Source: a virus. Taken from it: DNA of 59,907 nucleotides. Positions 1,276 to 54,812 of the stretch are shown piece after piece. Position 1 is the stretch's first letter. Each line of letters starts with the position of its first letter. The notes under the pieces are model-generated. The model worked only from the letters and a program-made list of their open reading frames with translations, was not told the origin of the DNA and made no database searches. Location of the stretch: IMG/VR virus record IMGVR_UViG_3300033141_002124, positions 1 through 59,907 of that record, one strand, 5' to 3'. The translations under genes and the position numbers were made by a program.

Positions 1276-1790
1276 GTTTATTTGTAGTAGACGTAGAATC
1301 AGATGGTGGACTCCTTGGAGTCAATAGTATGGTGTGTTTTGGTGTAGTCAAATTGACCCCCGAACTCGACACCACTTTTTATGGGCAAACGAAACCTATT
1401 TCAAAACAATACGAACCCGAAGCACTTGCAGTAAGTGGGTTCAGTAGAAAAGAGCACGAGAAATTTGATGACCCAGCAATTGTTATGTTGGAGTTTGAGG
1501 CTTATCTGAAAGCCAATTCTAAGAATAGACCGATTCTGATTTCAGATAATAATGGTTATGATGCCAGTTGGATTAATTGGTACTTCCTCACGTATCTCGG
1601 TAAGAACCCATTCGGTTGGTCATCAAGACGAATCGGTGACCTTTACTGTGGAATGATGAAGGACACGTGGGCGGGATGGAAGAAACTCCGTACCACCAAA
1701 CATACACACCATCCTGTGGATGATGCTATGGGCAATGCAGAAGCACTGCTTAAAATGAAAGAAATGGGTTTAAAAATTGATACAAAATAA
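1272..1790 (+). CDS. DEDDh-type 3'-5' exonuclease (DnaQ/RNase T-like)
   Basis: This 172-residue protein has the three motifs of DEDDh exonucleases. Exo I is VDVESDG near the start (D7, E9). Exo II lies around D97 in NNGYDASW. Exo III is HHPVDDA (H146, D151). Enzymes of this family remove nucleotides from the 3' ends of DNA or RNA with two metal ions. The length fits a stand-alone exonuclease domain of the RNase T/ExoX kind. The start overlaps the preceding gene by four bases. The substrate cannot be told from sequence; RNA or DNA trimming in early infection is plausible. Confidence 0.85.
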   Translation: MSLFVVDVESDGGLLGVNSMVCFGVVKLTPELDTTFYGQTKPISKQYEPEALAVSGFSRKEHEKFDDPAIVMLEFEAYLKANSKNRPILISDNNGYDASWINWYFLTYLGKNPFGWSSRRIGDLYCGMMKDTWAGWKKLRTTKHTHHPVDDAMGNAEALLKMKEMGLKIDTK

Positions 1791-1796
1791 TTAACA

Positions 1797-2069
1797 ATGA
1801 ACAAAAATCATAATATATTTAGAGACATCCTATTTATATTTCCAGTAATGGGATATTATGCTCTGGAAGCATTACTCGTTGGAATAGTAATTTCTATTGT
1901 TTGGAAATTATTTCTGAGCAATTTTTTTGGCAACATCGGATATCTTCAAATCGTTACAATTTACTGGATTATAAAAATGTTGTTATTCAATGTATTTAAT
2001 TTAATAGCAGGTTTGAATTCTGCTGGTAGTAATATGCAAAAAGAATTTGAAGAAAATGAGATACAGTAA
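1797..2069 (+). CDS. Small multi-span membrane protein
   Basis: This 90-residue protein has two to three hydrophobic segments (about residues 10-35 and 42-70) and a short charged C-terminal tail. It starts six bases after the exonuclease stop. Its last 14 bases overlap the next gene in another frame. I see no motif that assigns a function; a holin or superinfection-exclusion role is possible but unsupported. Confidence 0.55.
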   Translation: MNKNHNIFRDILFIFPVMGYYALEALLVGIVISIVWKLFLSNFFGNIGYLQIVTIYWIIKMLLFNVFNLIAGLNSAGSNMQKEFEENEIQ

Positions 2070-2274
2070 AGCAAACCCCAGACTAACAGTCAAATTTGTT
2101 GACAGTGACACCAATGAGATTCTTTTCGAAGTAAAAGACAGAACATGGATGAATGTATCTGAACTCCTGACCGATGGTGCTATCACCAACATCATGAAAA
2201 ACGAATGGAAAAACAGAGAACTACCTGATAACCTAATGGTGCTCGTAGTCGGTGAATTCCAATTAAAACAATAA
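2056..2274 (+). CDS. Small conserved-looking soluble protein
   Basis: A 72-residue protein starting MRYSKANPRL. I chose the ATG at 2056 over an in-frame TTG at 2047. It overlaps the end of the preceding membrane gene by 14 bases. The pattern of alternating beta-like strands (LTVKFVD, ILFEVKD) followed by a helix and another strand suggests a small alpha/beta domain. No family recognised. Confidence 0.55.
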   Translation: MRYSKANPRLTVKFVDSDTNEILFEVKDRTWMNVSELLTDGAITNIMKNEWKNRELPDNLMVLVVGEFQLKQ

Positions 2275-2330
2275 TTTTGTAACATTTTTCTCTGGTTTTC
2301 GTATAATCATTGAAACAAACAATAATTATT

Positions 2331-2873
2331 ATGAAAAAATTAATCGGATTATTCGCAATTTTGTTTATTACTACAGGGGTTTTCGGACAAAAATTTATTC
2401 GAGACCATTCGTTTATCAAAGCGACACCCACTGGAAATAACACTATTGAAGACGCAATCAATAGGACTAATATCAACTATACTGATTTTGATTGGATACA
2501 TTACGTCCATTTCATTCAGAATGACAGATTATTTTTGCTGTCTTATGAACCCAAAGAAAGGAGAATGTATGCTGGGTCTCGAAGTATCTACCTTTACAGT
2601 AAAGATATTAATGATGTCAGCAGTCCTTGGGAAGAAGCATCGGATGTCGTAATGACTAATCAGTGGATGAATGCTAATAATCATGATGAAGTCGATTTCT
2701 TCATATATAATGAAAACAAACACAATACCAGTGTTGGGAAAGTTGTTGTTAAGGATGATTGTGTCGAAATAACAATTGGTTGGGAAATGTGGTGTAATGG
2801 TAGACTCCAAATTAATGAACCAATAACAATAACGTTTACACCTGTAGGCAATAACATATATGCACATCAATAA
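2331..2873 (+). CDS. Secreted/periplasmic protein with signal peptide
   Basis: I place the start at the ATG at 2331. The encoded N-terminus (MKK, then a hydrophobic core, then TTGVFG before QKF) is a typical Sec signal peptide with a signal peptidase I site around residue 19. There is no lipobox cysteine. The mature part, about 160 residues, is rich in Asn, Asp and aromatics and looks like a beta-rich exported domain of unknown function. The stop overlaps the next start (TAATG). Confidence 0.6.
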   Translation: MKKLIGLFAILFITTGVFGQKFIRDHSFIKATPTGNNTIEDAINRTNINYTDFDWIHYVHFIQNDRLFLLSYEPKERRMYAGSRSIYLYSKDINDVSSPWEEASDVVMTNQWMNANNHDEVDFFIYNENKHNTSVGKVVVKDDCVEITIGWEMWCNGRLQINEPITITFTPVGNNIYAHQ

Positions 2874-3310
2874 TGGCTGTCGTTGTCCCATACAAGGAAA
2901 CAAATGGTAGCGAGAGATTCAAGAAGTTTCTCGCTACTCCTTTTACAATCGACATCCTATACCCCGTTTTCGGAAATAAATCCAGAGACACCTTATTTGA
3001 TGAATGGCGGGGAAAAGATATGTTGAATGGTTGGTCTAAGTTTACCAGTGATGATTATACGTTGGAATTCTATCCAACCTATTATACCATAAAGAAAAAT
3101 AAACCAATTGATAGCATTAAATATATGTTGTCAATACCAGAAACAATTGATGATTTCATCAATGATATGAATAGATTTGGGGTTCTACTCTACTGGACAG
3201 ATTGGATTGACCAGAACTTCGAACCAAAAGAATATCTTCATGTTGATGAAATCAAAAATTATTGGATAAACCTACTCGCAAAAATGGGTAAGTCGCAAGA
3301 ATTATTATAA
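2873..3310 (+). CDS. Hypothetical protein
   Basis: This 145-residue soluble protein has many aromatic and acidic residues. It is translationally coupled to the preceding secreted-protein gene through a TAATG overlap at 2871-2875. No signal peptide, membrane segment or catalytic motif can be seen. Function unknown. A host-type promoter for the next gene begins immediately after the stop. Confidence 0.55.
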   Translation: MAVVVPYKETNGSERFKKFLATPFTIDILYPVFGNKSRDTLFDEWRGKDMLNGWSKFTSDDYTLEFYPTYYTIKKNKPIDSIKYMLSIPETIDDFINDMNRFGVLLYWTDWIDQNFEPKEYLHVDEIKNYWINLLAKMGKSQELL

Positions 3311-3313
3311 TTC

Positions 3314-3344
3314 TTGCATATTTGTTTGTATTTACCTATATTTG
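3314..3344 (+). promoter_or_regulatory. Bacteroidota-type promoter (TTG-N20-TATATTTG)
   Basis: TTG at 3314-3316, then 20 bases, then TATATTTG at 3337-3344, 17 bases before the ATG at 3362. This matches the -33/-7 consensus of Bacteroidota housekeeping promoters (TTTG, TAnnTTTG). Confidence 0.65.
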
Positions 3345-3361
3345 CAATTAATTAAAATACT

Positions 3362-4099
3362 ATGGAGAAACAGGATTTAAAACTGTGGAATAATATTACG
3401 TTTAAAACTCAAGGATATCGTAAGAATTTTGACCTTATAAACGACAACGAAAAATTCATTACCGAATACGAGGGAACTATTACCGAACTCAGAATTGGGG
3501 AACGTAAACCACCCCGTCCAATGGGAGAATATAGTTTTTCAGTTTGGAATATCGGGTTGGGTGAGAAGTTCGATGTTGATTTTAACAAATTACTTAAACA
3601 ACATGGTGCTGATGACCTATATAGTGAGTTGGTTGATATGATTAAGGAAGACGAAATTAATATAAAAAAATATAAAAAGATTGTGTTGGTTCAGACACTT
3701 GTATTAAGTAAAGAATATCGTAAACGTGGTGTTACCGAAGAGTTTGTTGAAATGCTTTACCGAGATTTTTATTGTGATGACGTTGCAGTTATCATGCTTG
3801 TTAAACCATATCAAGACAATTTACTTAATACAGAATATTTTAGACATAAAAAAGTGCTTGTCAGGGAAACATTGAAACCAGCCGATGCAATCGGTGTTTT
3901 AGCAACTGAATATTATTCATTAAATGAATTGTTAAGTAAGAATGATACCGAATTTAACGAATATAAGTTATTTGCTGTTGTTAATAAGTGTGGTTTTCAG
4001 AGACTTAACGGTTCACATCTCTTTCTTCTTTCACCTAAAAAAATTGAAGAAAGAATGGTTGAAAAACAAAACATCTCACAACAAGTTGAAACTGAGTGA
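3362..4099 (+). CDS. GNAT-like acetyltransferase-fold protein
   Basis: This 245-residue protein has a central segment (about residues 113-150) with a beta strand (VLVQTLVLS), then EYRKRGVTEEFVEML, resembling GNAT motif A (strand, R/Q-x-x-G-x-A pyrophosphate loop, helix). The residue after the loop Gly is Val, so acetyl-CoA binding is likely but not certain. The flanking regions do not match anything I know. It has its own host-type promoter, suggesting early expression and perhaps modification of a host protein or small molecule. The assignment rests on this one motif. Confidence 0.5.
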   Translation: MEKQDLKLWNNITFKTQGYRKNFDLINDNEKFITEYEGTITELRIGERKPPRPMGEYSFSVWNIGLGEKFDVDFNKLLKQHGADDLYSELVDMIKEDEINIKKYKKIVLVQTLVLSKEYRKRGVTEEFVEMLYRDFYCDDVAVIMLVKPYQDNLLNTEYFRHKKVLVRETLKPADAIGVLATEYYSLNELLSKNDTEFNEYKLFAVVNKCGFQRLNGSHLFLLSPKKIEERMVEKQNISQQVETE

Positions 4100-4121
4100 G
4101 TGGCATTTTTACAGAAAATTA

Positions 4122-4130
4122 GTATTTATA
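4122..4130 (+). promoter_or_regulatory. Late-type element GTATTTATA
   Basis: The only plus-strand copy of the late-type motif, in the same orientation relative to its downstream genes as the minus-strand copies. It lies 11 bases before the small reading frame at 4142 and upstream of the M23 peptidase gene. Confidence 0.6.
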
Positions 4131-4141
4131 TACACGAAATA

Positions 4142-4321
4142 ATGAAAACTTATTTTAATATATTGAAATTATTAACAAGGGGGATGCCCCGAAAACGAAC
4201 TTCAGATGGTTTTAACCAACTGAACTTCACGATACCCAGAAAATTTAAATTTTCTGGGCATTTTCATTTAAATACCGTCTTAATTCCAGACGGTTGGCTG
4301 AAAGTTGCCGTGCGCAACTAA
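4142..4321 (+). CDS. Possible small basic protein (59 aa) in hairpin-rich leader
   Basis: An ATG 11 bases after a late-type element opens a 59-codon frame for a basic protein (MKTYFNILKLL at the N-terminus) ending in TAA at 4319. The placement matches other late genes here (3-32 bases after the element), which favours a real gene. Against it, the same DNA carries five hairpins, including a perfect 24-base palindrome, so the stretch may instead be a structured RNA or leader. Function unknown. Confidence 0.3.
   Translation: MKTYFNILKLLTRGMPRKRTSDGFNQLNFTIPRKFKFSGHFHLNTVLIPDGWLKVAVRN
4180..4318 (+). other. Cluster of five hairpins upstream of M23 gene
   Basis: Successive stems: GGGG/CCCC at 4180-4190; TTCAG-A-TGGT/ACCA-A-CTGAA at 4201-4224; a perfect palindrome CCCAGAAAA/TTTTCTGGG at 4235-4258; CCGTCT/AGACGG at 4275-4293; GTTGC/GCAAC at 4304-4318. 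None is followed by a long T-tract, so this does not look like a simple terminator. It may be a structured leader, a regulatory RNA, or structure within a small gene. Confidence 0.5.
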
Positions 4322-4361
4322 TTGATTATCAGTCACAAATAATCTTATTAAATATAAATAT

Positions 4362-5249
4362 ATGAAAAAAACAAAAACTGTTATCGCAAAAGTTGCATTT
4401 ATTATTTTAGTAATATCTGCAATTTTTAGTATTGGTGGTGGTATGTCATCACCGATGCAAGCAAATAGTGATGGGGTTGGACGAACCCATAATTCACGAC
4501 TGCAATTCGAGAACATGGAGTTGAGGAAAGAGTATATTGAATTAGAAGAAAAATTAAAAAAAATGGAAGCCGTAGCAGCAGAAATTCAAGAATTTGATAA
4601 TGTTTTATATTCTCAGGTTCTTGGAGTGGATTATGACACCACAGGTTTCTATCTATATAGGAATGATAGTATTGATTTTGCTATCCAACATTATGATACC
4701 ATTTTTAGTGAAATTGACAACAGAACATTTTACGTAGCAGAAATGTTATCAACACAATTAGTGAAGTTACAGGAAACCTCGCATCTTTTTAAAAACAATA
4801 AGAATGCGATTCTTTACTATCCAACAATTTCACCTGTGAAGACCAAGGATTTCATTTGTATTAGTTCACCATATGGTTGGCGTGAACACCCAATTGAGAA
4901 GAAACCTTTGTTTCATGAAGGAATTGACATCAGTGCTAATATTGGGTCTGAAGTTTATTCAACAGCACAAGGACGTGTGGTGAAGATAATGTATTCGAAA
5001 TACGGGTATGGTAATAGAATCTTAATAAAACACGCATATGGATTTGAAACTCTTTATGCTCACTTGGATAACATCAAAATTAAAAATGGTCAATGGGTAC
5101 GAAAGAACCAATTAATTGGTACTGTTGGTAATACTGGTCGTAGTACAGGACCGCACTTGCATTATGAAATACATAAAAATGGTGAACCCAGAGACCCATT
5201 AGGATATTTTTTCACACATATGACGGATGAACTGTTGGCAATGAACTAA
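4362..5249 (+). CDS. Membrane-anchored M23 (LytM-type) endopeptidase
   Basis: This 295-residue protein has an N-terminal membrane segment (about residues 8-27), a short coiled coil (about 47-78), and a C-terminal M23 zinc peptidase domain (about 165-285). The zinc ligands are visible: H185 and D189 in HEGID, and H267 in HLHYE, with H234 and H265 as likely catalytic histidines. M23 enzymes cut peptide cross-links in peptidoglycan. The N-terminal anchor suggests action from the inner membrane, as a SAR-like endolysin or lysis helper. It lies downstream of a late-type element and a hairpin-rich leader. A host-type promoter for the next gene sits in its last codons. Confidence 0.9.
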   Translation: MKKTKTVIAKVAFIILVISAIFSIGGGMSSPMQANSDGVGRTHNSRLQFENMELRKEYIELEEKLKKMEAVAAEIQEFDNVLYSQVLGVDYDTTGFYLYRNDSIDFAIQHYDTIFSEIDNRTFYVAEMLSTQLVKLQETSHLFKNNKNAILYYPTISPVKTKDFICISSPYGWREHPIEKKPLFHEGIDISANIGSEVYSTAQGRVVKIMYSKYGYGNRILIKHAYGFETLYAHLDNIKIKNGQWVRKNQLIGTVGNTGRSTGPHLHYEIHKNGEPRDPLGYFFTHMTDELLAMN

Positions 5250-5265
5250 AATTTTATTACATTTG
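5235..5265 (+). promoter_or_regulatory. Bacteroidota-type promoter, leaderless (TTG-N20-TACATTTG)
   Basis: TTG at 5235-5237, exactly 20 bases, then TACATTTG at 5258-5265, only four bases before the ATG at 5270. The transcript should start at or very near the start codon. The -33 part lies inside the end of the M23 gene. Confidence 0.6.
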
Positions 5266-5269
5266 CTAC

Positions 5270-5584
5270 ATGAAAACATTTATTAGTACAGCACACGAAG
5301 AAGAAGATTCGAATAAAAGCAGGATATTTGGTGTCTTGCTCAATTCAGATGAAGACGGCAAGCGTGTAGATAGTCTGATTTACGTTTATCGTAACAACAG
5401 AAAGATGTATATATTCTTTAATACAATTATTGACATGAATGAGTTCTTATTATATGGTGATGGTAAGTTTCAAAGAGCATATATAAGTGAAGATGATTTT
5501 GACCAATATTGGGACGCACCACATATTGATGGAAAATTTACAGACCATCTTGTGTGGACAACAAAAACCACCCCTCAGAGTTGA
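5270..5584 (+). CDS. Hypothetical protein (104 aa)
   Basis: A soluble 104-residue protein rich in Asp and Lys with several beta-like segments; no known motif. It is the last plus-strand gene before the strand switch. A host-type promoter four bases upstream of the ATG predicts a leaderless, probably early, transcript. A 7-base-pair stem (CCTCAGA/TCTGAGG, 5573-5602) spans its stop codon. Confidence 0.55.
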   Translation: MKTFISTAHEEEDSNKSRIFGVLLNSDEDGKRVDSLIYVYRNNRKMYIFFNTIIDMNEFLLYGDGKFQRAYISEDDFDQYWDAPHIDGKFTDHLVWTTKTTPQS

Positions 5585-5602
5585 TTTGAGGATATTCTGA
5601 GG
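5573..5602 (+). terminator. Possible hairpin at convergent gene ends
   Basis: CCTCAGA at 5573-5579 pairs with TCTGAGG at 5596-5602 across a 16-base loop. There is no T-tract, so its terminator activity is uncertain. It sits where plus- and minus-strand transcription converge. Confidence 0.3.
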
Positions 5603-5660
5603 AATATAAACAGAATTGTGTGGCAGAAGACCTTTTAAGTATTAAGTGTCTTAAAACGGC

Positions 5661-6602
5661 TTAAAACTTCCTTTTAGTTGGTTCGAATACTTCAATTCGG
5701 TTTGAATCAAACGCTGTTTTATACCCTTCGTCCCACCAAGCATTCATTTCTTCTTTATTAAAGATTAATGAATTTGCACTAAGTTTCCTTGGAAGCCAAT
5801 AAATTGTTACTTTAGCACCTTGTCTATTAAGTCTTTTTATCTTTTCATGAAAATAATAAAACTCAATATCGTGTCGCATCACATTAATAGTTGTATTAAT
5901 ATTTTCACTCAAATTATGAATTTTATTTCCTTCAAAAGCATCAATATTTTTTACTCTATGTAAAATAATATCAATTTCCTTATAACCTCTCATACTCAAT
6001 TGGTCAAGTCCAATTAAATCGGTTAATCCACCGTCACCCCATAAACCAACATGAAACTTCCCGTCACCATTTCGCCAACTTTTTTTTACCATTGAAGTAA
6101 AAAATGGTAGGTTTGCACTACACCATATCCAGTCTTTAAAATCCTCATATTCCTCATCCATTGAATTAAAGTAATGGATTTTAGATGGTACTTGTGCAAA
6201 ATTCTGTGTTCCTACAAGAACTTCCTTATTTTGATTCCGTAATTCATCAAATTGGTGTTGATTAAAATATTCATCAATCCTTTTTCTTAAAATGTGGGAA
6301 GTATATATTGTTTTCTGACCTAACAATAATGTCATCAATACTGGTAGTTTTCTGATTCTACCTTTTTTTGTGAATGGTTTTCCTTTATACCAACACCCAT
6401 CATAAACATCACAATTATCTGCTGTGATATATGCTGTTCTCAAATATTCCCATTCTCTTAAAGCAGTGTGTGGTGCTAAAAGACTTCCTGTTGAAACACC
6501 AATCACGGTATCATAATCACCATCAATTCTTTCAAGTGTTCCACCACCATACGCACCCCAAGCACCGCCTCCTGAAATTAAACATGCTTTTTTAATTGCC
6601 AT
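5661..6602 (-). CDS. Patatin-like phospholipase
   Basis: This 313-residue protein carries the full patatin signature. The glycine-rich oxyanion loop is GGGAWGAYGGG near residue 11, the nucleophile elbow is GVSTG with S37, and the catalytic Asp is in WGDGG (D190). Patatins hydrolyse acyl chains from phospholipids. I start at ATG 6602 rather than the in-frame GTG at 6608. It stands alone between a terminator and the convergence point, with its own late-type element 12 bases upstream. A late phospholipase could help disrupt membranes at lysis, act inside the virion, or remodel host lipids. Confidence 0.85.
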   Translation of the reverse strand: MAIKKACLISGGGAWGAYGGGTLERIDGDYDTVIGVSTGSLLAPHTALREWEYLRTAYITADNCDVYDGCWYKGKPFTKKGRIRKLPVLMTLLLGQKTIYTSHILRKRIDEYFNQHQFDELRNQNKEVLVGTQNFAQVPSKIHYFNSMDEEYEDFKDWIWCSANLPFFTSMVKKSWRNGDGKFHVGLWGDGGLTDLIGLDQLSMRGYKEIDIILHRVKNIDAFEGNKIHNLSENINTTINVMRHDIEFYYFHEKIKRLNRQGAKVTIYWLPRKLSANSLIFNKEEMNAWWDEGYKTAFDSNRIEVFEPTKRKF

Positions 6603-6614
6603 AATCACATTTTA

Positions 6615-18827: not shown

Positions 18828-21800
18828 TTATTCAATTGTTAATGATGATATACCGTTCTCGTCTAACTGTACCTGAATCAAATAATCAGGGTTAATTTCA
18901 ATGAGTTGTTCAACCACCAAGACCTTCTTCATCTTCAATTTGATTAGTTGTAGAATCTCTTTGAATTCATCAATTGCATTTGAATCTAACTTACCCATGA
19001 CCTCATCCAATAAGAAGATTGATGGTTTTGCTTTAACATTGATTTGATTAAGTGCAAACTTCAATACAACACTACTGAAAGTTCTTTCTTTACCACTGGC
19101 ACTGATACAATCAATAATGGCTTCAGGTCTATCATAATAAACCAACTTGGGTCTGAGGTCGTTTACATCAAGCCAGACCTTAAATGGTGCTACACTAAGT
19201 ATATTTTCCAACGTAATATTGATTTTCGGTATAATATGATTACTTAACATCTGTCTTGGAATACCGTCACGATGCACGCATTTCTTATAAAGTGCCATAA
19301 CACTATCCTGATACTCCTGAACCTTGAACTCTTCAATTAATAATTTATTACCCATTATTCTGGTTTCTTTCTCTCCAATAGATGTTTTTCTAATAAACAC
19401 ATTTTCTTTTTCATCTTCTTCTTCGACTTCAAGAATTTCAATCTTTCCTTTAGCTGCTTTGATTCCCTTTTCAATTCTCTGATTCTCTTCAATCTGCTTC
19501 AAACTATTTTCATGTCTGGTAATCTTTTGTTCCAGAATATCGATTTTCAATTGTTCATTATCAATCAGCGTTGGGACTTGATTAAGTTCGATTTGAAGTG
19601 TATTGCGTCTATCAACATCATTCTTTTCGTTGGTAAGAACACCAATATCTTTCAGAACCGCTTCCATCTCTAAATCAAGTTTGGTGATTTCCCCATTTAT
19701 TGTCACAACATTATCATCACATTTCTTTATAGCTGATTTCCAATCAGTATCAATATCATGTTGATATTCCTTCATTTCCTTGGCGAAAGCAAACATCTTA
19801 ACTTCTTTTTCCTTAACAGAATTTGTTATATGGTCTTGATGTTCTTTCTTATCGATTACTTGACCACATTCGGGACAATTTTTACTGTTCTTCAGTTTAG
19901 CTATTTCATCTTTCAGATTTCCACCATCCCTTTTCGCAGTATGAATCCTACCTTTAAGAAGTTCGATTTTGTGTTGGAAATCTGCTTTCTTTCTTTCCTC
20001 TTCTTTTATTGCAAATTTCTTTTCATAAACCTTTTGTTTATGTTCGTCACGCTTTATAATGAGATTATTTAGTTTTACTTCATCATAACTTTCTCTTAAC
20101 TCACCAATACTTTGCTGTAGAACCATCTTACGTGCCTTAATTTCAACGATTCTCTTCTTATGGTCACTTATGTCAAGTCTGGCTTCATCTACGTCCAGAT
20201 TGTAGATTTCATCGTCTATTTGATAGAGTTTCTTTGTAAGTGTTTCAATATACTCACGACCAGTTTGAATTCTGCCTTGGATATCAGGTAATTTCGTACC
20301 TTCTATTTCGGTAATTTCGCTTTGAAGTGTTGTAATTTCCTGAGTTAATGTTGCATTCTGAGTCGTTGTGAATTCAATGTTACAACTCACACGTGTTTTT
20401 TCATTCGCACGCTTCTGATATACTTTAAGACCTTCAAGTTTTTTATCAAAGATATCCAATCCACTATCATATAATAATGAATCAATAAAAACTGCCATAT
20501 CATTAGATAAATTCTGATTCAATGTATCTGAAGTCGTCATGACGATTCGCATGAAATTATCATATGTACCAATAATACCTTCGATTTTCTTTTGGGTTTT
20601 AGTTCGTCTGTCACCATCGAGTTTATCCAAGCAGTTATCATCAGTCATTTCATCATCAGGATTATTGAGAACGTAATAACTCAAGGAAGTCGGTGCTCCA
20701 TTAATTGTCCCATCTCGCTTTCTCTCGATTTTAGTAGCTTTCTTAATTCCATAATATTCACCATTGGCTTCCAATACCATGTAGGCTTCACATGAAGTCG
20801 CATCATTTCTATTATTGACGAAACGTTTATCACCAAATTTCATACGGTTTTCGGTTTCCAATGTTTTACCGAATAACAAATACGAAATGAGTTTCATAAT
20901 GGTGGTTTTACCAGCAGTATTTGCACCGTTTATTTGGAAAATACCATCAGTCTTTCGCCAATCAACATCAAGCTCACCATAAGACATGAAGTTCTTTCCA
21001 CCAAATTTAATAACATCCCATTCGATATTCTGGTCTTCAGGAACATCAATTTCATTTAAGATTTCTTCATCCAAAGCAATGATGTCATTCATTAATTGTT
21101 CATCAGTCCCAATTCTTTCCAAATAGTCCTTAAATATTTCTTGCTGAACAGCAGCATCAGTCACATTTTCTAACGTAATATTTTCATTAACATCTACGTC
21201 TTCTGATTCAATGAATTCGTTTTTATGAGAAATTGTGAGATTTTTATGTTCCTTAAATAAGTAACCTTTGGTGTAGTCAATAAGTTTTCGTTCATTTTCT
21301 TTGGTACGTGTTTGTGGTAGCGTACCCCAGACAAATCTGAGTTTCATATATTTAGTTGGATTCTCTACCTCAAAATCCAAATCATCAAAATCAGTATATG
21401 GTGTTATTTTAATATTCTTAAAACTATAATTATTAGGTATTTCAATTTCAGCAGTAGTCTGCTTAATTATATCCCAAAGCAAATAACCATGAAAAGCATC
21501 ATCACCCTCTGATACGTCTTGTGAAATAAGAGACCCACAATATGCTTTCTTATTATCTTTATCAAGGTATTGCATTCTATGAATATCTCCGAAGAACGAA
21601 TATGTACCTTTGAAGTCACTGATTTTATAATATGACTTGCTTTTCATTTCGAAATCAGTGGTTGACATGCAACCAGTAATAGGGTCATGGAAAAGGTCAA
21701 TATTAACTCTGGCATCCTGTCCTTGATAAGCAAGAAGTTTCTTACCTTCCTTAGTTTTCCAAGGGTTATTGTTTTTCTCACCATGATGCCAAACTGCCCA

Positions 21801-22169
21801 AGTCACGTTTTCATCAACATAAAAACCTGTCTTATCATAATATTCAACATCAATATCACCAAGCGTTTCAACAATCGCTTTAATACTATCCACACGTTTG
21901 AGATTTTTCTTACGACAATCATGATTACCTCTGGTTGTTCGTACAGGAGCGATTGTAGCCAATTCTTTAAGGAAATTGTGAGCCATGATTAATTGCTCAC
22001 CCTGTAAGTCAAGATAGTCATGAACAAGGTCACCAACAATTATAATTCTATCAGGTTTTTGTTTCTTTAAAGATGTGATTAATCTTTTAAATACTTGTTG
22101 ATATTCTTCATTTCTTGTAGGTGTTTTTCGTATGTGAATATCTGCGAGATGCGCAATTGTTTTAATCAT
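18828..22169 (-). CDS. Fused Mre11-Rad50 (gp47-gp46-type) recombination nuclease
   Basis: A 1113-residue single chain joining both subunits of the SbcCD/Mre11-Rad50 complex. Residues about 1-260 are the calcineurin-like nuclease: D10-I-H12, GD at 46-47, GNHD at 81-84, GDIH at 194-197. Residues about 380-560 and 950-1113 are the ABC ATPase: Walker A GANTAGKTT near 415, signature SASGKE near 1023, Walker B IFLLDE with D1055/E1056. Between them a long coiled coil carries a zinc hook, CPEC at 765-768. In T4 these are separate genes 47 and 46, used in DNA-end resection and host DNA degradation. A host-type promoter suggests early expression. Confidence 0.93.
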   Translation of the reverse strand: MIKTIAHLADIHIRKTPTRNEEYQQVFKRLITSLKKQKPDRIIIVGDLVHDYLDLQGEQLIMAHNFLKELATIAPVRTTRGNHDCRKKNLKRVDSIKAIVETLGDIDVEYYDKTGFYVDENVTWAVWHHGEKNNNPWKTKEGKKLLAYQGQDARVNIDLFHDPITGCMSTTDFEMKSKSYYKISDFKGTYSFFGDIHRMQYLDKDNKKAYCGSLISQDVSEGDDAFHGYLLWDIIKQTTAEIEIPNNYSFKNIKITPYTDFDDLDFEVENPTKYMKLRFVWGTLPQTRTKENERKLIDYTKGYLFKEHKNLTISHKNEFIESEDVDVNENITLENVTDAAVQQEIFKDYLERIGTDEQLMNDIIALDEEILNEIDVPEDQNIEWDVIKFGGKNFMSYGELDVDWRKTDGIFQINGANTAGKTTIMKLISYLLFGKTLETENRMKFGDKRFVNNRNDATSCEAYMVLEANGEYYGIKKATKIERKRDGTINGAPTSLSYYVLNNPDDEMTDDNCLDKLDGDRRTKTQKKIEGIIGTYDNFMRIVMTTSDTLNQNLSNDMAVFIDSLLYDSGLDIFDKKLEGLKVYQKRANEKTRVSCNIEFTTTQNATLTQEITTLQSEITEIEGTKLPDIQGRIQTGREYIETLTKKLYQIDDEIYNLDVDEARLDISDHKKRIVEIKARKMVLQQSIGELRESYDEVKLNNLIIKRDEHKQKVYEKKFAIKEEERKKADFQHKIELLKGRIHTAKRDGGNLKDEIAKLKNSKNCPECGQVIDKKEHQDHITNSVKEKEVKMFAFAKEMKEYQHDIDTDWKSAIKKCDDNVVTINGEITKLDLEMEAVLKDIGVLTNEKNDVDRRNTLQIELNQVPTLIDNEQLKIDILEQKITRHENSLKQIEENQRIEKGIKAAKGKIEILEVEEEDEKENVFIRKTSIGEKETRIMGNKLLIEEFKVQEYQDSVMALYKKCVHRDGIPRQMLSNHIIPKINITLENILSVAPFKVWLDVNDLRPKLVYYDRPEAIIDCISASGKERTFSSVVLKFALNQINVKAKPSIFLLDEVMGKLDSNAIDEFKEILQLIKLKMKKVLVVEQLIEINPDYLIQVQLDENGISSLTIE

Positions 22170-48415: not shown

Positions 48416-49009
48416 TTATTTAAATTTTATGATTTCCTCTTGAATGATATTCAATAATTTATTTGTTGAATTGAAATTAACCACACCTTCACCGATAAGT
48501 GGACGAATACTACCCTTATCAACAAAATTCAATGTGTAGGTCACATCATCAGATAACTTGTTTTTGATTTTGGTGTACTCAGCAATCTTTTCAGCATTCC
48601 TATCCATGAAATCATCATACACAACAATCTCTTTCAAATCTTGATTATAATTCTCGATTCTCAATATAATATCACCTTTATCTTCACGACCTCTTTTCGT
48701 AATAAGGTCATCGACAGTAATTCCATTCAGTTTTAAAATATTTTCAAGTTCAGGACGCAGTTTCTCCATACGAGAAGTCAGAATAATCGTACTGGTATCA
48801 GGGTCAGCCATGTCTGTTTGAAGTTTTGCAAGAATGTTTGGGAATGGTTTGATTTCAAATACATCGGTGTCAAGACTTTCTCTGCGCCCCCACCATCCAA
48901 CGTGTGGATATGGTTGACCCATTTTCTCTTCCCATTGTACTTTTCCTGTTTCTGGTTCTGGGGAATCAATTAGTGTTCCATCAAAATCATATACTGCCAA
49001 TCTTTTCAT
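48416..49009 (-). CDS. HAD-superfamily phosphatase (RNA-repair type candidate)
   Basis: A 197-residue protein with the HAD motifs: DFDGTLIDS at residues 8-16, IILTSRMEKL as motif II, a Lys/Arg region near KRGREDKGD, and IVVYDDFMDRN as motif IV. HAD phosphatases remove phosphates; phage polynucleotide 3'-phosphatases and 'Swiss Army knife RNA repair' proteins belong here. It overlaps no gene but starts two bases from the nuclease-like gene and ends the operon begun by the megaprotein. Substrate RNA is inference from neighbours. Confidence 0.78.
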   Translation of the reverse strand: MKRLAVYDFDGTLIDSPEPETGKVQWEEKMGQPYPHVGWWGRRESLDTDVFEIKPFPNILAKLQTDMADPDTSTIILTSRMEKLRPELENILKLNGITVDDLITKRGREDKGDIILRIENYNQDLKEIVVYDDFMDRNAEKIAEYTKIKNKLSDDVTYTLNFVDKGSIRPLIGEGVVNFNSTNKLLNIIQEEIIKFK

Positions 49010-49010
49010 G

Positions 49011-49517
49011 CTATTTGTATATTGTTGTCATTATAAATTGTTCGATATCAGAGAATGGTACAATAACCACCATATCTCTTCGACCCATTCTTTTATATCT
49101 ATGATATGCTATTTCAGAAAGGTCATCTGGTTTAAGGAACACATAACCAGTTGGATTTACTATTTTGCTTTCAACAAACTCCTTTATTTTCACTCTATGA
49201 ATTAAATCAAATCGGTCTTCTCTTTCAAAGGCAATCGCATGCGCTTTTCCTTTTATCCAACCATCTTTACCATTAACTGCTTGAAATTCAATCCAAGTAA
49301 GTCCATCCTTATGACTTTCCTTATATCCTTTTACATCAACACGTGCAAACTTACCATGACCTTTACTCATCTTAACATCCCAATGTTCATGCCTGTCTTG
49401 ATAATTTGTTGGTCTTATACATCGGTATCCATCACGTGTCGCTAATTCTATGAAATAATCTTCGACCTTTAAACCATCAGCATACATTTGTTCTTGTAAT
49501 TCATGAATAGTTGCCAT
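49011..49517 (-). CDS. PD-(D/E)XK nuclease-like protein
   Basis: A 168-residue protein with a predicted nuclease core: HEHWDVKMSKG, then ARVDVKGYKES (D-x-K), then WIEFQAVNGKDGWIKGKAHAIAFER. A Glu/Asp followed by D-x-K on adjacent strands and a helix fits the PD-(D/E)XK fold. It starts three bases after the megaprotein stop and ends in TAG just before the HAD gene. DNA or RNA target unknown. Confidence 0.55.
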   Translation of the reverse strand: MATIHELQEQMYADGLKVEDYFIELATRDGYRCIRPTNYQDRHEHWDVKMSKGHGKFARVDVKGYKESHKDGLTWIEFQAVNGKDGWIKGKAHAIAFEREDRFDLIHRVKIKEFVESKIVNPTGYVFLKPDDLSEIAYHRYKRMGRRDMVVIVPFSDIEQFIMTTIYK

Positions 49518-49520
49518 AAC

Positions 49521-52500
49521 TTATTCTTCACTTACTTTTCCAGTTAAATTCAATGGAAACCCAAGAGGCTTCCAGTCTTTCAGTTTATTTGACATAAATG
49601 GTTTACCACCATCGGCACGATTAACAGCAATTGTTATGTGTGGTTTTGGATTATTAGAATGATAACCTTCAACACCAACTGCCATAACCAGTTCGTCCAT
49701 CGCATAATCAATCACTCTCAACGAAATCTCAATGTTCTTCTCCATATCTTCCTGCGCATCACTACCGTTTTCAAGTGCACCCATCATTATTGTCATGTGA
49801 TGTGCAACAACTTCCCAACCTTCAGGTATCATCGGACTTAAAACCTTAAGTAAACTGGCTCTTGATTTATCATCAAGAACAACTGCGCTATAACTCACTC
49901 TTTTCACTTCTTCTTCTCCTAATAAATTTCTATCTGTTAATGCCCAATATAATTCTTTCCTTAATTTTTCATCAACACTGAAGTCTTCATAATTATTCTG
50001 AAGAAATTCCAGTACTGATTCATGTGATGCATCATGATATCCACTATCTTTCCCACCTTGATTATTCCATTTATCGTATTCCTTAACAAAAAAATCAATA
50101 GTTACTTGCTTTCCATTGACATTCCATGTCTTTGGTTGTATACCATCGTAATTAGGGTATCCTTCTTGAATTTCCTTATCTTTCTCTCTCACCAAAGATA
50201 GTAATTCTTCTCGGTCATTCCTAACATTATCACTATAAACTTTAATTAATAATGATTTCAACATATCACCAATTTCCCTACCTTGTAATCCCATACTCAT
50301 TAAAACGTTTCCATCAATAGCGAGTTCACCAAAATCTTTTGGATATTTTCCAGTCAACAATTCCTGTGCTGCTCTTTTTATTGGTTCAGGTAAAATCTCA
50401 CTGTTTAATGTATTTGGTAAAATCTTGAAGATGTTATGTGCAAGAGTTCTTGCTGTAACATTATCTATATTATCATCGGCTTGAAATGCTTGTTGAAATG
50501 CTTTTAATTCTTTATATGTATCAATATCACATTTCAGTTTCGATTTACAATATTCCGCAATGTCTTGAACAAGATGATGTGCTGTAAGCCAAAGAAATTC
50601 TCCCATTGTTTTAACAACATTCCATTCTTTACCCATATATAAACCACCATCACCGTTAAATATTTGTGGGGTAAGTCCTAAATCTTTAAGTAAATACGCT
50701 CCTTCAAACGCATTACCTTTCTTAACAATTTTATCAAACTCAATTAATATCCTTTCAGGTGGAATTTCTTTAATTCGACCTGCATTCTTTTTAATCATTT
50801 CTCTGGTCTCGTCATCAATCTTGAAACCAAAACGTGCAGCGAATTGAACAGCACGTAACATTCTCAAAGGGTCATCACTAAATGCTTCTGGATTAACGAT
50901 ACGAATAATTTTATTTTTAAGGTCTTCTTGACCACCAAAAGGGTCAATTATATTACCATCAATATCTTTAGCAATCGCATTAATCGTAAAATCCCTGCGT
51001 TCCAAATCTTTTTCAAGTGGAAGTTCGTGGTCTGATGACACATCAAATCCTTTATGACCACCTTCACCAGTCGCTTTTTCAGTTCTTGGAATCGCCACAT
51101 CAATTTCTTCTGATGCACCTTGTGGCTTAAATTTTAACACACCAAATTGTTTACCCACTGCGTCAACTTTTCCATATTTTGACATGAGTGTACCTAACTT
51201 ATCCATTGGAATGCCTGTCACAAGAATATCAAGGTCTTTACTTTCTTTACCTAAAAACTCATCACGTACAGCACCACCAACGCTAAATATCTTACCGCCA
51301 AGTTGTTCGACCTCTTCTTTAAAAGGTAAGTCTTGTAATGACATTATATTCTCATTCATATCGGGTACAAGACTACTAAAATATTCTGAGACTTCCAAAT
51401 CATCTTCATTCACAGAACCAAATTCCAAATTATTAATGTCGCCTTGATTACAAGCAACACTGGTATTACCCAAACCTGCAAGCTGACATTTCCTCTTTAC
51501 TTTAACGGTTTTTGAACCAGTACCAAAAGATTTGTCTCTTTCGATTAATGCGTTATCACCATTAATCTTATTATCATAATATGTATATAATCTTCTCGTT
51601 AATTTTTTCTTATTATCAGCATTCAAATTTCGAATAAATTCTCCATTAAATGGTTTATTATGCTCTATTGAATCTTGAAACAATTTTGAAATGAAAACAT
51701 TAAAGTCTGAATATTTTTCATATCTTTTTTTATTAGCATGTATATTTTTTAATCCTTCGAGATAATATGCATTATATTCTTCATCTCTATTATAATATGA
51801 ATCGTTTGATGATTTGTAGGTATCACTATATTTAGTATCATCCAGATAATGGACAAATTCGTGGACAAATGTATCTTCGTTCACCCAAGATGCAAATCTA
51901 ATTCGGGCAAAATGTATATCCGATTCGACATTTTGTTTTGGTGGTTCGTCACTAAATGATTGTCGCTTCTCTAATATAAAAAAACAAAGTGTTTTTGTTT
52001 TAGGGTCAAAAAATGCCCTATTATTTTTCATTAAAGGAAAAAATGCTATTTGTAAATCAATTATACTTATTTGGTTTATATTAAATCCGACACCACTAAA
52101 CATTCTTTCACCATTCGTAGTATTGAATTCAAGTTCAATACTTTCAAATTTAATGTTATTAATATTCTCTTTAATTTTCTTATATAAATTCTTCCCTAAA
52201 TTAGTGGTCTTTATATCAGAACCAAAATCTTCTCCTAACATATATTCGTCATCGGTTGCATCTCCTTTAACATGATTATATTCAAGGTCTTCATACATCG
52301 CAACATTAGCATCGAGGTCATTATTAATGCTTGGTGAAGTATCGTTGGTATTGTAAGGGGGAAAACCGTCTTGTCCAACATCACTATCTGTACTGAATTT
52401 AGCACTACCGTCTTCATCTACTTCGACACCCATTTTTTCAGCACCATGAGGTTGCATAAAAAAATCTGTAAATCCAACATCAAAGAATCCAATTACTCCA

Positions 52501-54812
52501 CTTGGTTTATATCCAAGATTTTCTGGATTATAAAAATCATAACTATCAATCCCATGTTCTCTGAGTTCTTCAACGATTCTTAAAATACTAAAAAAGAATT
52601 CTCCGTCTTGACTGTTCTTTTTAAAATAGTTATCAACTTTACTTTTATCAATTGCGTCATCATTATATTGATGACCATCCAAATATGAATCCAATGCTTC
52701 TTTATAATCGGTATCAAATATATTCTTGAAAACGTAATCAAGTCTGTCATACATTCGTTTAAAATTGGCTTCATCGGGAACGAGTTTTTCTAAAATAATC
52801 GCATATGTTTTCCATTCTCCCTCTGGTATGTTTTCTGGGGTTACCTCAAACACACGATAAACATCTGCAATATATTTAAGTTTTTTACCAACCAGTTTCA
52901 GATTCTCATAAGCCTCACTATTATCTTTTGTGATTTTCAATACTTTATTATCCCCAATATCGTATGCAACACCAATTGTACCATGTCCAAGATATTTAGG
53001 TTCTTGAATACCTAACTTAGTTGTAATTCTATTAGCAATTCTATCCGCTTTATCTCTTGGGTAATCTTCTTCGAGTTGTTCTTCAGTAATGTTTTCAGGT
53101 AATTGAATAACATCATCATCACCAATATTTGGTTCATCAACACCATAATAACCACCAGTGTCAAAGAATTTTAAAACACCGTCTTTATATCCAAGATTTC
53201 TTTTTTCAACATAGTCTTTTGATTTAATTCCATATCCCAATAATTCTTTGCGAATATTTAAAATACCAACAAGAAACTCATATGCTGCTTGCCTATCGGT
53301 TTGACTAACATTTGCTGCTGGATTATCAGTCAATACATGTTTTGCTATTTCAAGCATCTGATTATAATCAAATCTCTTAGGAATTCTTATTGAAGATAAA
53401 ATATCAGTATATCCCATTCCTGCTGGTTGAATTTTCTCTATATCATCATCAAATTTTCTGAATTTCTCAAGTGGTTTCTCATTAACATTTTCTTGCATAA
53501 TAACAAAAATAGATTTATTTGTAGCTGTATCAAGAACCTTATATAAATTAAAAATTGTTGCAATGTTTTGTGGTCTTACTCTCAATAATTTTGATGCAGC
53601 ATCAGCTTCACTAACATCCGTAGTTAATTTCATTACGAGATTATCATTTATTTGATAAGCAAAACCATTCGCACCACCACCAATATATTTTGGTTGTGTC
53701 AGACTTAATTTATTGGCAATCTCTCTCGCCAATTCATCAGCATAATTTCTATCAGTTAATGTATCGGGGTCAACAGCAGGTATATCTTCATTAATAACAT
53801 AGCTTTCACTTAATAATGGGTCTCTATTATAGAATCCTCGTCTAATAAGATATTCTTGTAACTTCAATAAGTTCCCGTAAAACTGTTCTTTATTATCTAC
53901 GTGATTCAGTGTTTCTCTTATGTTATTTACACATTCATGGAAACTATCAGCCAGTACAGAAATACCTTCCACTGATTTGTTAGGATATTTATCACGTTTC
54001 GAAACCAGATTAACGAAACCTTCATTAATAACTGCATTACTATTATCACCACCATCACTAACACTGTAAGGCATTTGTGCCCACATACCTGTTCTAATGT
54101 CTTGTCCACCACCAGCATCGCTTAATATGTCATCATTACCATCAGCATAATTGTAGAGTTCATACATCTGATATCTATTCCTCTTCTTTCTATCAGGACT
54201 ATAATGGGTATCATAAACTTCATCATTAAGACCGTAATCAGTTAAAACAATTGCTGGTTGTCCATCACGAAGAACCTCACCATAACTACTTGGTCTTCCC
54301 ATATCACCAGCATTTTGACCGTAATTGGCTATAAAATTACTTAAATCTTGTGCAAACTCGTTCTCGTAAAGAAACTCTTCTTCTTCACGAGTTATGTAGT
54401 TCTCTTCAAATCTTTTATTTTGTCCTTTACTTTGTACTTCATAATTTATTAAAAAATATCCCAATATATCGAGATTCGGAATTTCTGTTAATTCTTCAAT
54501 TCGTTTCTTTGTAACTTTTTTTGCCTTTTCCGCAATCAACCAAGTGTCATCATCTGCACTATCAAATACTTCAGTTACGATATGTTGAGTATCACGATAA
54601 TAACCAGCACCTGCTTCAGCACCATTCTGTGCAACGCCTTTGGCGTTCATTGCAAGTTTTAGTACCTTCTCACCATCAATATCATACACTCTTCTGCCAG
54701 TACCACTACCAATTCTTGGTAATCTTTCATCGGCATATCTCATCCTACCAGCATAGGAATTTATATTCAGAAATTCTGGTAAGAAATTTTGTTTAAATTC
54801 ATCATAAGTCAT
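49521..54812 (-). CDS. Megaprotein: three kinase-fold modules, zincin motif, CCA-type nucleotidyltransferase, 2H phosphoesterase
   Basis: One 1763-residue chain. Three modules look kinase-like, each with a Gly-rich loop, a V-x-K strand and a DFG-like end: 30-200 (IGSGTGRRV, VLKLA, LTDYGL), 370-555 (GGGANGFAY, VMKLT, FDTGG) and 605-785 (GHGTIGVAY, VLKIT, FFDVG). A zincin motif, HEFVH, is at 984-988 with Glu downstream. Residues 1160-1400 are a class II CCA-adding-type nucleotidyltransferase: GGAVRDEFLG, DLDIL, RRDFTINAI (1272-1280), DDPLRMLRAVQFAARF. Residues 1635-1760 are a 2H phosphoesterase with HMTI (1672) and HITI (1725). A late-type element drives it with a nuclease-like and a HAD gene. 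I infer tRNA repair or counter-defence, perhaps virion-borne. Confidence 0.8.
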   Translation of the reverse strand: MTYDEFKQNFLPEFLNINSYAGRMRYADERLPRIGSGTGRRVYDIDGEKVLKLAMNAKGVAQNGAEAGAGYYRDTQHIVTEVFDSADDDTWLIAEKAKKVTKKRIEELTEIPNLDILGYFLINYEVQSKGQNKRFEENYITREEEEFLYENEFAQDLSNFIANYGQNAGDMGRPSSYGEVLRDGQPAIVLTDYGLNDEVYDTHYSPDRKKRNRYQMYELYNYADGNDDILSDAGGGQDIRTGMWAQMPYSVSDGGDNSNAVINEGFVNLVSKRDKYPNKSVEGISVLADSFHECVNNIRETLNHVDNKEQFYGNLLKLQEYLIRRGFYNRDPLLSESYVINEDIPAVDPDTLTDRNYADELAREIANKLSLTQPKYIGGGANGFAYQINDNLVMKLTTDVSEADAASKLLRVRPQNIATIFNLYKVLDTATNKSIFVIMQENVNEKPLEKFRKFDDDIEKIQPAGMGYTDILSSIRIPKRFDYNQMLEIAKHVLTDNPAANVSQTDRQAAYEFLVGILNIRKELLGYGIKSKDYVEKRNLGYKDGVLKFFDTGGYYGVDEPNIGDDDVIQLPENITEEQLEEDYPRDKADRIANRITTKLGIQEPKYLGHGTIGVAYDIGDNKVLKITKDNSEAYENLKLVGKKLKYIADVYRVFEVTPENIPEGEWKTYAIILEKLVPDEANFKRMYDRLDYVFKNIFDTDYKEALDSYLDGHQYNDDAIDKSKVDNYFKKNSQDGEFFFSILRIVEELREHGIDSYDFYNPENLGYKPSGVIGFFDVGFTDFFMQPHGAEKMGVEVDEDGSAKFSTDSDVGQDGFPPYNTNDTSPSINNDLDANVAMYEDLEYNHVKGDATDDEYMLGEDFGSDIKTTNLGKNLYKKIKENINNIKFESIELEFNTTNGERMFSGVGFNINQISIIDLQIAFFPLMKNNRAFFDPKTKTLCFFILEKRQSFSDEPPKQNVESDIHFARIRFASWVNEDTFVHEFVHYLDDTKYSDTYKSSNDSYYNRDEEYNAYYLEGLKNIHANKKRYEKYSDFNVFISKLFQDSIEHNKPFNGEFIRNLNADNKKKLTRRLYTYYDNKINGDNALIERDKSFGTGSKTVKVKRKCQLAGLGNTSVACNQGDINNLEFGSVNEDDLEVSEYFSSLVPDMNENIMSLQDLPFKEEVEQLGGKIFSVGGAVRDEFLGKESKDLDILVTGIPMDKLGTLMSKYGKVDAVGKQFGVLKFKPQGASEEIDVAIPRTEKATGEGGHKGFDVSSDHELPLEKDLERRDFTINAIAKDIDGNIIDPFGGQEDLKNKIIRIVNPEAFSDDPLRMLRAVQFAARFGFKIDDETREMIKKNAGRIKEIPPERILIEFDKIVKKGNAFEGAYLLKDLGLTPQIFNGDGGLYMGKEWNVVKTMGEFLWLTAHHLVQDIAEYCKSKLKCDIDTYKELKAFQQAFQADDNIDNVTARTLAHNIFKILPNTLNSEILPEPIKRAAQELLTGKYPKDFGELAIDGNVLMSMGLQGREIGDMLKSLLIKVYSDNVRNDREELLSLVREKDKEIQEGYPNYDGIQPKTWNVNGKQVTIDFFVKEYDKWNNQGGKDSGYHDASHESVLEFLQNNYEDFSVDEKLRKELYWALTDRNLLGEEEVKRVSYSAVVLDDKSRASLLKVLSPMIPEGWEVVAHHMTIMMGALENGSDAQEDMEKNIEISLRVIDYAMDELVMAVGVEGYHSNNPKPHITIAVNRADGGKPFMSNKLKDWKPLGFPLNLTGKVSEE

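Follow-up and report, generated by a model that had tools for sequence, protein, structure and literature searches.

A phage polyvalent protein joins a CCA-adding enzyme to a 2H phosphoesterase and takes part in a recurring linkage with a HAD phosphatase

Described systems closest to the locus

CCA addition and end healing meet on one polypeptide in bacterial Cca proteins: an HD domain gives the E. coli and mycobacterial enzymes (E. coli Cca, Mycobacterium Rv3907c) both 2',3'-cyclic phosphodiesterase and phosphatase activity (PMC10673834, citing Yakunin 2004). The need for end healing has direct precedent, since CCA ends cut by angiogenin carry a 2',3'-cyclic phosphate, and T4 PNK treatment preceded repair by a CCA-adding enzyme in vitro (PMC3757041). 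RNA 2',3'-cyclic phosphates are also opened by the 2H fold and sequence class of the CPD domain of fungal tRNA ligase Trl1 and of CNPase. Healing of tRNA ends can be encoded by a phage, as in the T4 Pnkp/Rnl1 repair of PrrC damage. The accessible portions of a jumbo-phage RNA repair inventory list Rnl1/Rnl2, RtcB, SAK-HAD, 2H and the CCA-adding enzyme as jumbo-phage parts, handled separately and with no CCA-2H-HAD linkage or fusion in those portions (PMC7824862); CCA-adding enzymes are likewise noted in huge phages (PMC7162821). Polyvalent proteins, finally, are big chains of disparate, swappable enzymatic modules that include shortened kinase domains, a zincin-like motif and a 2H domain; the CCA-adding enzyme goes unmentioned in their description, and no RNA-ligase partner of the 2H domain was seen there (Iyer et al. 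2017, PMC5512222).

We analysed a virus record of 59,907 bases over its whole length (the window). A single unbroken ORF of 1763 aa runs from 54812 to 49521 on the minus strand. The initial annotation had proposed that this one chain combines a CCA-type nucleotidyltransferase with a 2H phosphoesterase, which our analysis confirms. That annotation gave no strand and left out the kinase-like repeats at the N-terminus, the zincin-like module and a neighbouring HAD gene. The features discussed below are the following.

49521..54812, minus: polyvalent ORF with kinase-like repeats, zincin-like module, CCA nucleotidyltransferase and 2H (near-identical ORF in L003 and L004; relatives L006, L010, L014 and others)
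53823..54716, minus: kinase-like repeat 1 (aa ~33-330; GSGTGRxVYD...VLKLA, VLTDYGLND), from sequence motifs kept in alignment A4
53100..53753, minus: kinase-like repeat 2 (aa 354-571; AlphaFold2 model, kinase neighbours)
52458..53030, minus: kinase-like repeat 3 (aa 595-785; AlphaFold2 model, kinase matches at Z 9-10 over 594-785)
51588..52010, minus: variable module with zincin-like motif HEFVH (aa 984-988), flanked by two conserved linkers
50178..51353, minus: class II CCA-adding tRNA nucleotidyltransferase without HD domain (aa ~1154-1545; Pfam, PHROG, NCBIfam and model)
49908..50135, minus: segment bridging CCA enzyme and 2H (aa 1560-1635; conserved in alignment A2)
49524..49907, minus: 2H phosphoesterase, fungal tRNA-ligase CPD/CNPase-like, with HMTI and HITI (aa 1636-1763; PF08302 and CNPase fold matches)
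49011..49517, minus: 168-aa ORF separating the fused gene from the HAD gene (an ORF of similar length at the same place in several relatives)
48416..49009, minus: HAD phosphatase of HAD_SAK_1 (Swiss-Army-Knife) type, third cassette member (family matches of relatives and linkage)

Compared with Cca proteins bearing an HD domain, the healing folds of the phage set (2H and HAD) are unrelated, modular and often encoded by separate genes. The 2H domain is partnered here with CCA addition, whereas its counterpart in Trl1 works beside a kinase and a ligase. Unlike the T4 Pnkp/Rnl1 system, the window chain contains neither an RNA ligase nor a 5' kinase, and the end it targets is probably the acceptor end. 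As far as the available portions of the literature go, the three-enzyme linkage and fusion appear new, while each enzyme class was already known singly in jumbo phages. The literature searched, represented in part by excerpts and with the Burroughs and Aravind 2016 RNA-repair survey outside its scope, yielded no description of a CCA-2H-HAD linkage or fusion. The functional combination itself is already known from HD-bearing Cca (PMC10673834).

Domains of the 1763-aa chain

The fused ORF is not an assembly chimera: this possibility was ruled out because L003 and L004, contigs from other metagenomes, contain a 99.9% identical ORF, and because the CCA-2H fusion is kept in relatives at 58-70% identity. 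A homology search with the full chain, a check proposed by the initial annotation, returned 14 relatives. Purifying selection acts on both the CCA and the 2H domain (dN/dS about 0.1-0.2), and Rfam gave no intron match in the window or in five loci. Every motif quoted initially was located in the chain (GGAVRDEFLG at residue 1179, DLDIL at 1193, RRDFTINAI at 1272, DDPLRMLRAVQFAARF at 1313, HMTI at 1672 and HITI at 1725). The label of a late protein was not retained, as only a strand and a block shared with a gp6-like baseplate gene speak for it.

The nucleotidyltransferase region matches PolyA_pol (2e-23) and PolyA_pol_RNAbd (4e-14) in Pfam, and its best NCBIfam match is CCA tRNA nucleotidyltransferase (8e-49, under the equivalog cut-off of that family). 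Modelled with AlphaFold2 (mean pLDDT 81), aa 1136-1763 bore out both folds expected from the motifs, nucleotidyltransferase and 2H. Residues 20-409 of this model match the solved bacterial CCA-adding enzymes 6qxn and 1miv (Z 29, rmsd ~4 A), and the head, neck, body and tail fold of a class II enzyme is present over its full length. The catalytic DxD, RRDxxxNA and [ED]DxLR motifs are present in the window domain, and DxD/RRD/DDxLR is retained in nearly all CCA copies of the relatives. By sequence and model, the domain is a complete class II CCA-adding enzyme, predicted to add C, C and A. Pfam detected no HD domain in the window's chain, in contrast to the CCA enzyme of L082, which matches PF01966 at 5e-8. 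In alignment A2 the CCA head domain occurs in two flavours, RRDFTINA and RRDAKMNA (L006 vs L013 and L016), with similar C-terminal halves, a sequence pattern that suggests recombination within the domain.

The C-terminal 128 residues match PF08302, the fungal tRNA-ligase CPD family, in 6/6 members (best 6e-7); the window copy itself scores 2e-4, with 21.2 bits against a gathering cut-off of 23, and is roughly half as long as the Pfam profile (128 vs 250). Model residues 500-628 match 2',3'-cyclic-nucleotide phosphodiesterase (CNPase) at Z 12.9, and Foldseek also lists a fungal RNA kinase, 6u05, at 2e-4. Both HMTI and HITI lie at strand starts in the model, as the 2H fold predicts. Their His and Thr are invariant across 23 diverse relatives and the HxT...HxT pair is intact in 51/53 2H copies; in L012, a cassette member beyond the 23-relative set, the second motif has decayed to HIII. 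Family matches and model together identify the C-terminus as a 2H phosphoesterase whose closest Pfam family is the fungal tRNA-ligase CPD. Searching PDB sequences with the 2H profile gave no useful match. Among cultured phages, this 2H was found in Agrobacterium phage Atu_ph07 only, where a CCA gene lies about 9 kb from it, and the single match in cellular genomes is a Bacteroidota MAG contig (L063) that holds the whole cassette and is probably phage.

Outside the CCA and 2H domains, the remaining ~1100 residues consist of kinase-like repeats and the variable zincin-like module. Residues 1-785 form three kinase-like repeats, the second and third identified on the AlphaFold2 model and the first by its motifs. 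Structural neighbours of repeats 2 and 3 are protein kinases in 50/50 of the PDB matches listed (best Z 11.4, PKR). The alignments mostly reach about the DFG region and the remaining C-lobe is absent, a shortened kinase type that has been described for polyvalent proteins, mainly of Verrucomicrobia-Chlamydia and Bacteroidetes (pro)phages (PMC5512222). The slot between the conserved linkers holds the zincin-like HEFVH module in the window, for which Pfam gave no match, and different modules in relatives. With several disparate enzymatic domains on one mobile-element chain and modules swapped among relatives, the 1763-aa chain is best filed as a polyvalent protein. As such it may be packaged in the virion and injected. 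One linker, GSKxVxVKxxCxLGGxGxTSxACNQGDIxNL, is conserved at aa 1099-1136 of the window ORF and present twice in L152:5060-7984; recurring between modules, it may mark a module-insertion point. Second 2H domains of LigT-like type also occur: one lies upstream of the CPD-type 2H in the polyvalent chain of L015 (aa ~1000-1165) and another inside that of L034 (ORF 1577-5977), where the CPD-type 2H is the next gene. One row of alignment A2, presumably L015, matches TIGR02258 (2',3'-cyclic phosphodiesterase) at 2e-4.

Recurrent linkage of the CCA, 2H and HAD genes

The partner missed by the initial annotation is a HAD phosphatase two genes downstream of the 1763-aa ORF. HAD_SAK_1 is matched by 12/12 HAD relatives (best 2e-12), the window copy reaching 21.4 bits against a cut-off of 25.6, and HAD motifs I-IV (DxD, T/S, K, DD) are present. 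The intervening 168-aa ORF has neither a Pfam nor a PHROG match. A HAD subclade fused to an N-terminal region of ~440 aa (L177:6651-8489, L183:6666-9083, and similarly L163, L169, L173, L174 and L178-L189) mostly has no CCA or 2H nearby.

To follow the linkage, we used the HAD alone as query, kept 80 viral loci and counted CCA, 2H and HAD as linked when they fell within 8 kb. All three were present at 58/80 loci, corresponding to 42/52 clusters at 80% identity. The order CCA, 2H, HAD as separate genes was found 29 times and a fused CCA-2H followed by HAD 18 times, while L156 has 2H, CCA, HAD. Three loci encode 2H, CCA and HAD on one chain of 698-1035 aa (717 aa in L155/L035, 698 aa in L168 and 1035 aa in L167). 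A scan with the 2H profile placed the CCA enzyme on the same chain (C- or N-terminal to 2H), directly upstream or directly downstream, and added the orders 2H, HAD, CCA (L045) and 2H, CCA (L044, L048, L049). Parsimony on the 2H tree (57 rows, weakly resolved) requires fusion state to change at least ~9 times and gene order 3 times, with adjacency retained. Nineteen large contigs each carry exactly one CCA and one 2H gene, 49-4747 bases apart; picked from loci holding all three enzymes, this set shows single copy and tightness and is biased as a frequency.

The protein itself is modular, and the 2H domain can stand outside the chain as the next gene. In L007-L009, L016 and L011 the chain lacks 2H and another module follows the CCA enzyme. 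Loss of 2H through free module swapping was considered for these loci and rejected: a stand-alone 2H gene follows, so the domain was split off, not lost, and a HAD gene comes after it wherever the contig extends. Some relatives have the kinase and CCA parts on separate ORFs with other ORFs intervening. ORFs that by eye resemble homing endonucleases (GIY-YIG-, LAGLIDADG- or HNH-like) lie close to the kinase and CCA ORFs, or between them, in L011, L012, L013, L063 and L175, and in L175 the CCA enzyme is itself in two pieces about 1 kb apart. A PHROG scan of the neighbours in a 325-kb relative gave polymerase, helicase and tail-fibre-like matches and found no head gene among them.

Part of the synteny is shared ancestry inside one jumbo-phage group. 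Plain inherited synteny would not have neighbours repeatedly join and split, however, which argues for a shared task. From their conserved adjacency in many arrangements, the CCA nucleotidyltransferase and 2H appear functionally coupled. The 2H domain also has uses of its own, since about ten distinct divergent loci of the 40 in the 2H scan have no CCA or HAD nearby.

Other RNA-repair genes accompany more distant 2H members. L052:5539-11816 is an RNA-repair cluster with an upstream CCA gene, a fusion of a P-loop kinase to 2H, a T4 Rnl1 and an Rnl2-type ligase, on a contig with 12 tRNAs. In L036 the CCA gene is followed by a 2H fused to an RNA_ligase-like domain. In L082 an HD-bearing CCA enzyme is accompanied by a LigT-like 2H and by an ART-like gene with weak similarity to Tpt1. 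L052 and L036 bear on a reading in which the 2H domain degrades cyclic nucleotides of host immunity (Acb1-like) or acts as an RNase (Usb1-like), the CCA enzyme being a chance neighbour or a host-takeover module. Such roles were proposed for polyvalent 2H domains by Iyer et al. (PMC5512222), the 2H of L052 weakly matches Acb1 (2e-3), and modules are freely swapped. Yet the nearest family is the tRNA-ligase CPD and the nearest fold CNPase, the domain is coupled to CCA and HAD again and again in varied orders, and in L036 and L052 it is coupled to ligases, a pairing never seen for polyvalent 2H domains in PMC5512222. We therefore regard this reading as highly improbable.

tRNA context and candidate functions

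RNA ligases of Rnl1 or Rnl2 type occur in 14/19 large cassette contigs, unlinked to the cassette and generally far from it: the nearest lies about 10 kb away (G057), and in the main cassette clade the distance is usually tens of kb. No ligase was detected in G022, a 325-kb contig with the cassette, and the window has no RNA_lig_T4_1 match. The initial annotation had pictured repair of tRNAs cleaved by host anticodon nucleases or toxins, in which the broken end is resolved and CCA then rebuilt. This order of steps fits a CPD/CNPase-like 2H; an anticodon break is the weaker candidate for the lesion. Following T4 Pnkp/Rnl1 logic, 2H and HAD would heal the 5' half at its 3' end, ready for a phage RNA ligase, with CCA addition in parallel. 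The frequency of ligases in cassette contigs, the kinase-2H fusion beside ligases in L052 and the 2H-ligase fusion in L036 are consistent with this scheme, but it leaves the CCA enzyme unneeded and unexplained and has to do without a 5' kinase on the chain and with ligases that are unlinked or, in G022, undetected. We consider it distinctly unlikely. Damage at the acceptor end is the better fit, because an anticodon break calls for no CCA addition, the chain has neither ligase nor 5' kinase, and the ligases are unlinked.

Each cassette contig that reaches 298 kb has 28-53 tRNAs, and the cassette lies outside the tRNA arrays; the 59,907-base window has no tRNA gene. CCA is encoded in 25/326 (~8%) of the tRNA genes examined in ten large cassette contigs, compared with 35/128 in three contigs that have 2H and in which no CCA enzyme was detected (Fisher p about 1e-7, from few lineages and with a small control group drawn from other phage lineages). 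These tRNA sets could mean that the cassette only finishes the phage's own CCA-less tRNAs at their 3' ends, with 2H and HAD tidying intermediates and no part in defence. Normal bacterial tRNA 3' processing, however, yields a 3'-OH, for which neither a phosphodiesterase nor a phosphatase is required. The position outside the arrays and a host Cca that could serve also argue against maturation as the only task, which makes it an unlikely account.

The explanation we favour, and hold to be reasonably probable, is that the phage enzyme set acts on tRNA 3' ends, healing them and building or rebuilding CCA, the window chain being two of its three parts. The 2H domain would open a terminal 2',3'-cyclic phosphate, CPD/CNPase-type enzymes leaving a 2'-phosphate; the HAD phosphatase would take off the remaining phosphate, freeing the 3' end; and the CCA nucleotidyltransferase would restore CCA, making the tRNA chargeable again. 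Likely substrates would be tRNAs that are shortened or cleaved close to the acceptor end in the course of infection and/or the phage's own, mostly CCA-less tRNAs, whose maturation is an equally natural substrate; the tRNAs served may be damaged ones of host or phage, nascent phage tRNAs, or both. In this clade the modular polyvalent protein that houses the nucleotidyltransferase, and often 2H too, also contains kinase-like modules and variable effector ones. No HD domain was detected in the window CCA enzyme, so its place looks to have been taken by two non-homologous enzymes, 2H and HAD; by analogy the cassette would be an apparent second invention of the function of the E. coli Cca HD domain. 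One point against end healing by the phage set is that host CCA enzymes exist anyway. Tpt1/KptA was considered as a partner for the 2'-phosphate and set aside, being above cut-off in only 1/44 records.

Bacterial immunity is known to attack tRNA tails: Cas12a3 cleaves tRNA 3' tails in anti-phage defence (PMC12851939). A bolder and quite tentative possibility is that the cassette is a dedicated counter-defence, delivered early in an injected polyvalent protein, which reverses a widespread and still undiscovered attack on CCA ends that leaves 2',3'-cyclic phosphates. If so, phages with the conserved cassette would already possess a remedy against nucleases that cut tRNA tails and leave cyclic phosphates, and the cassette would point to attackers beyond those now known. 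The compact 698-aa 2H-CCA-HAD chain of L168 makes the idea directly testable in vitro.

Elsewhere in the window, a 1113-aa chain (18828-22169, minus strand) joins an SbcD-like metallophosphoesterase to an SbcC-like ATPase, and genes for a patatin-like phospholipase (5661-6608, minus) and an M23 peptidase (4362-5249, plus) are present.
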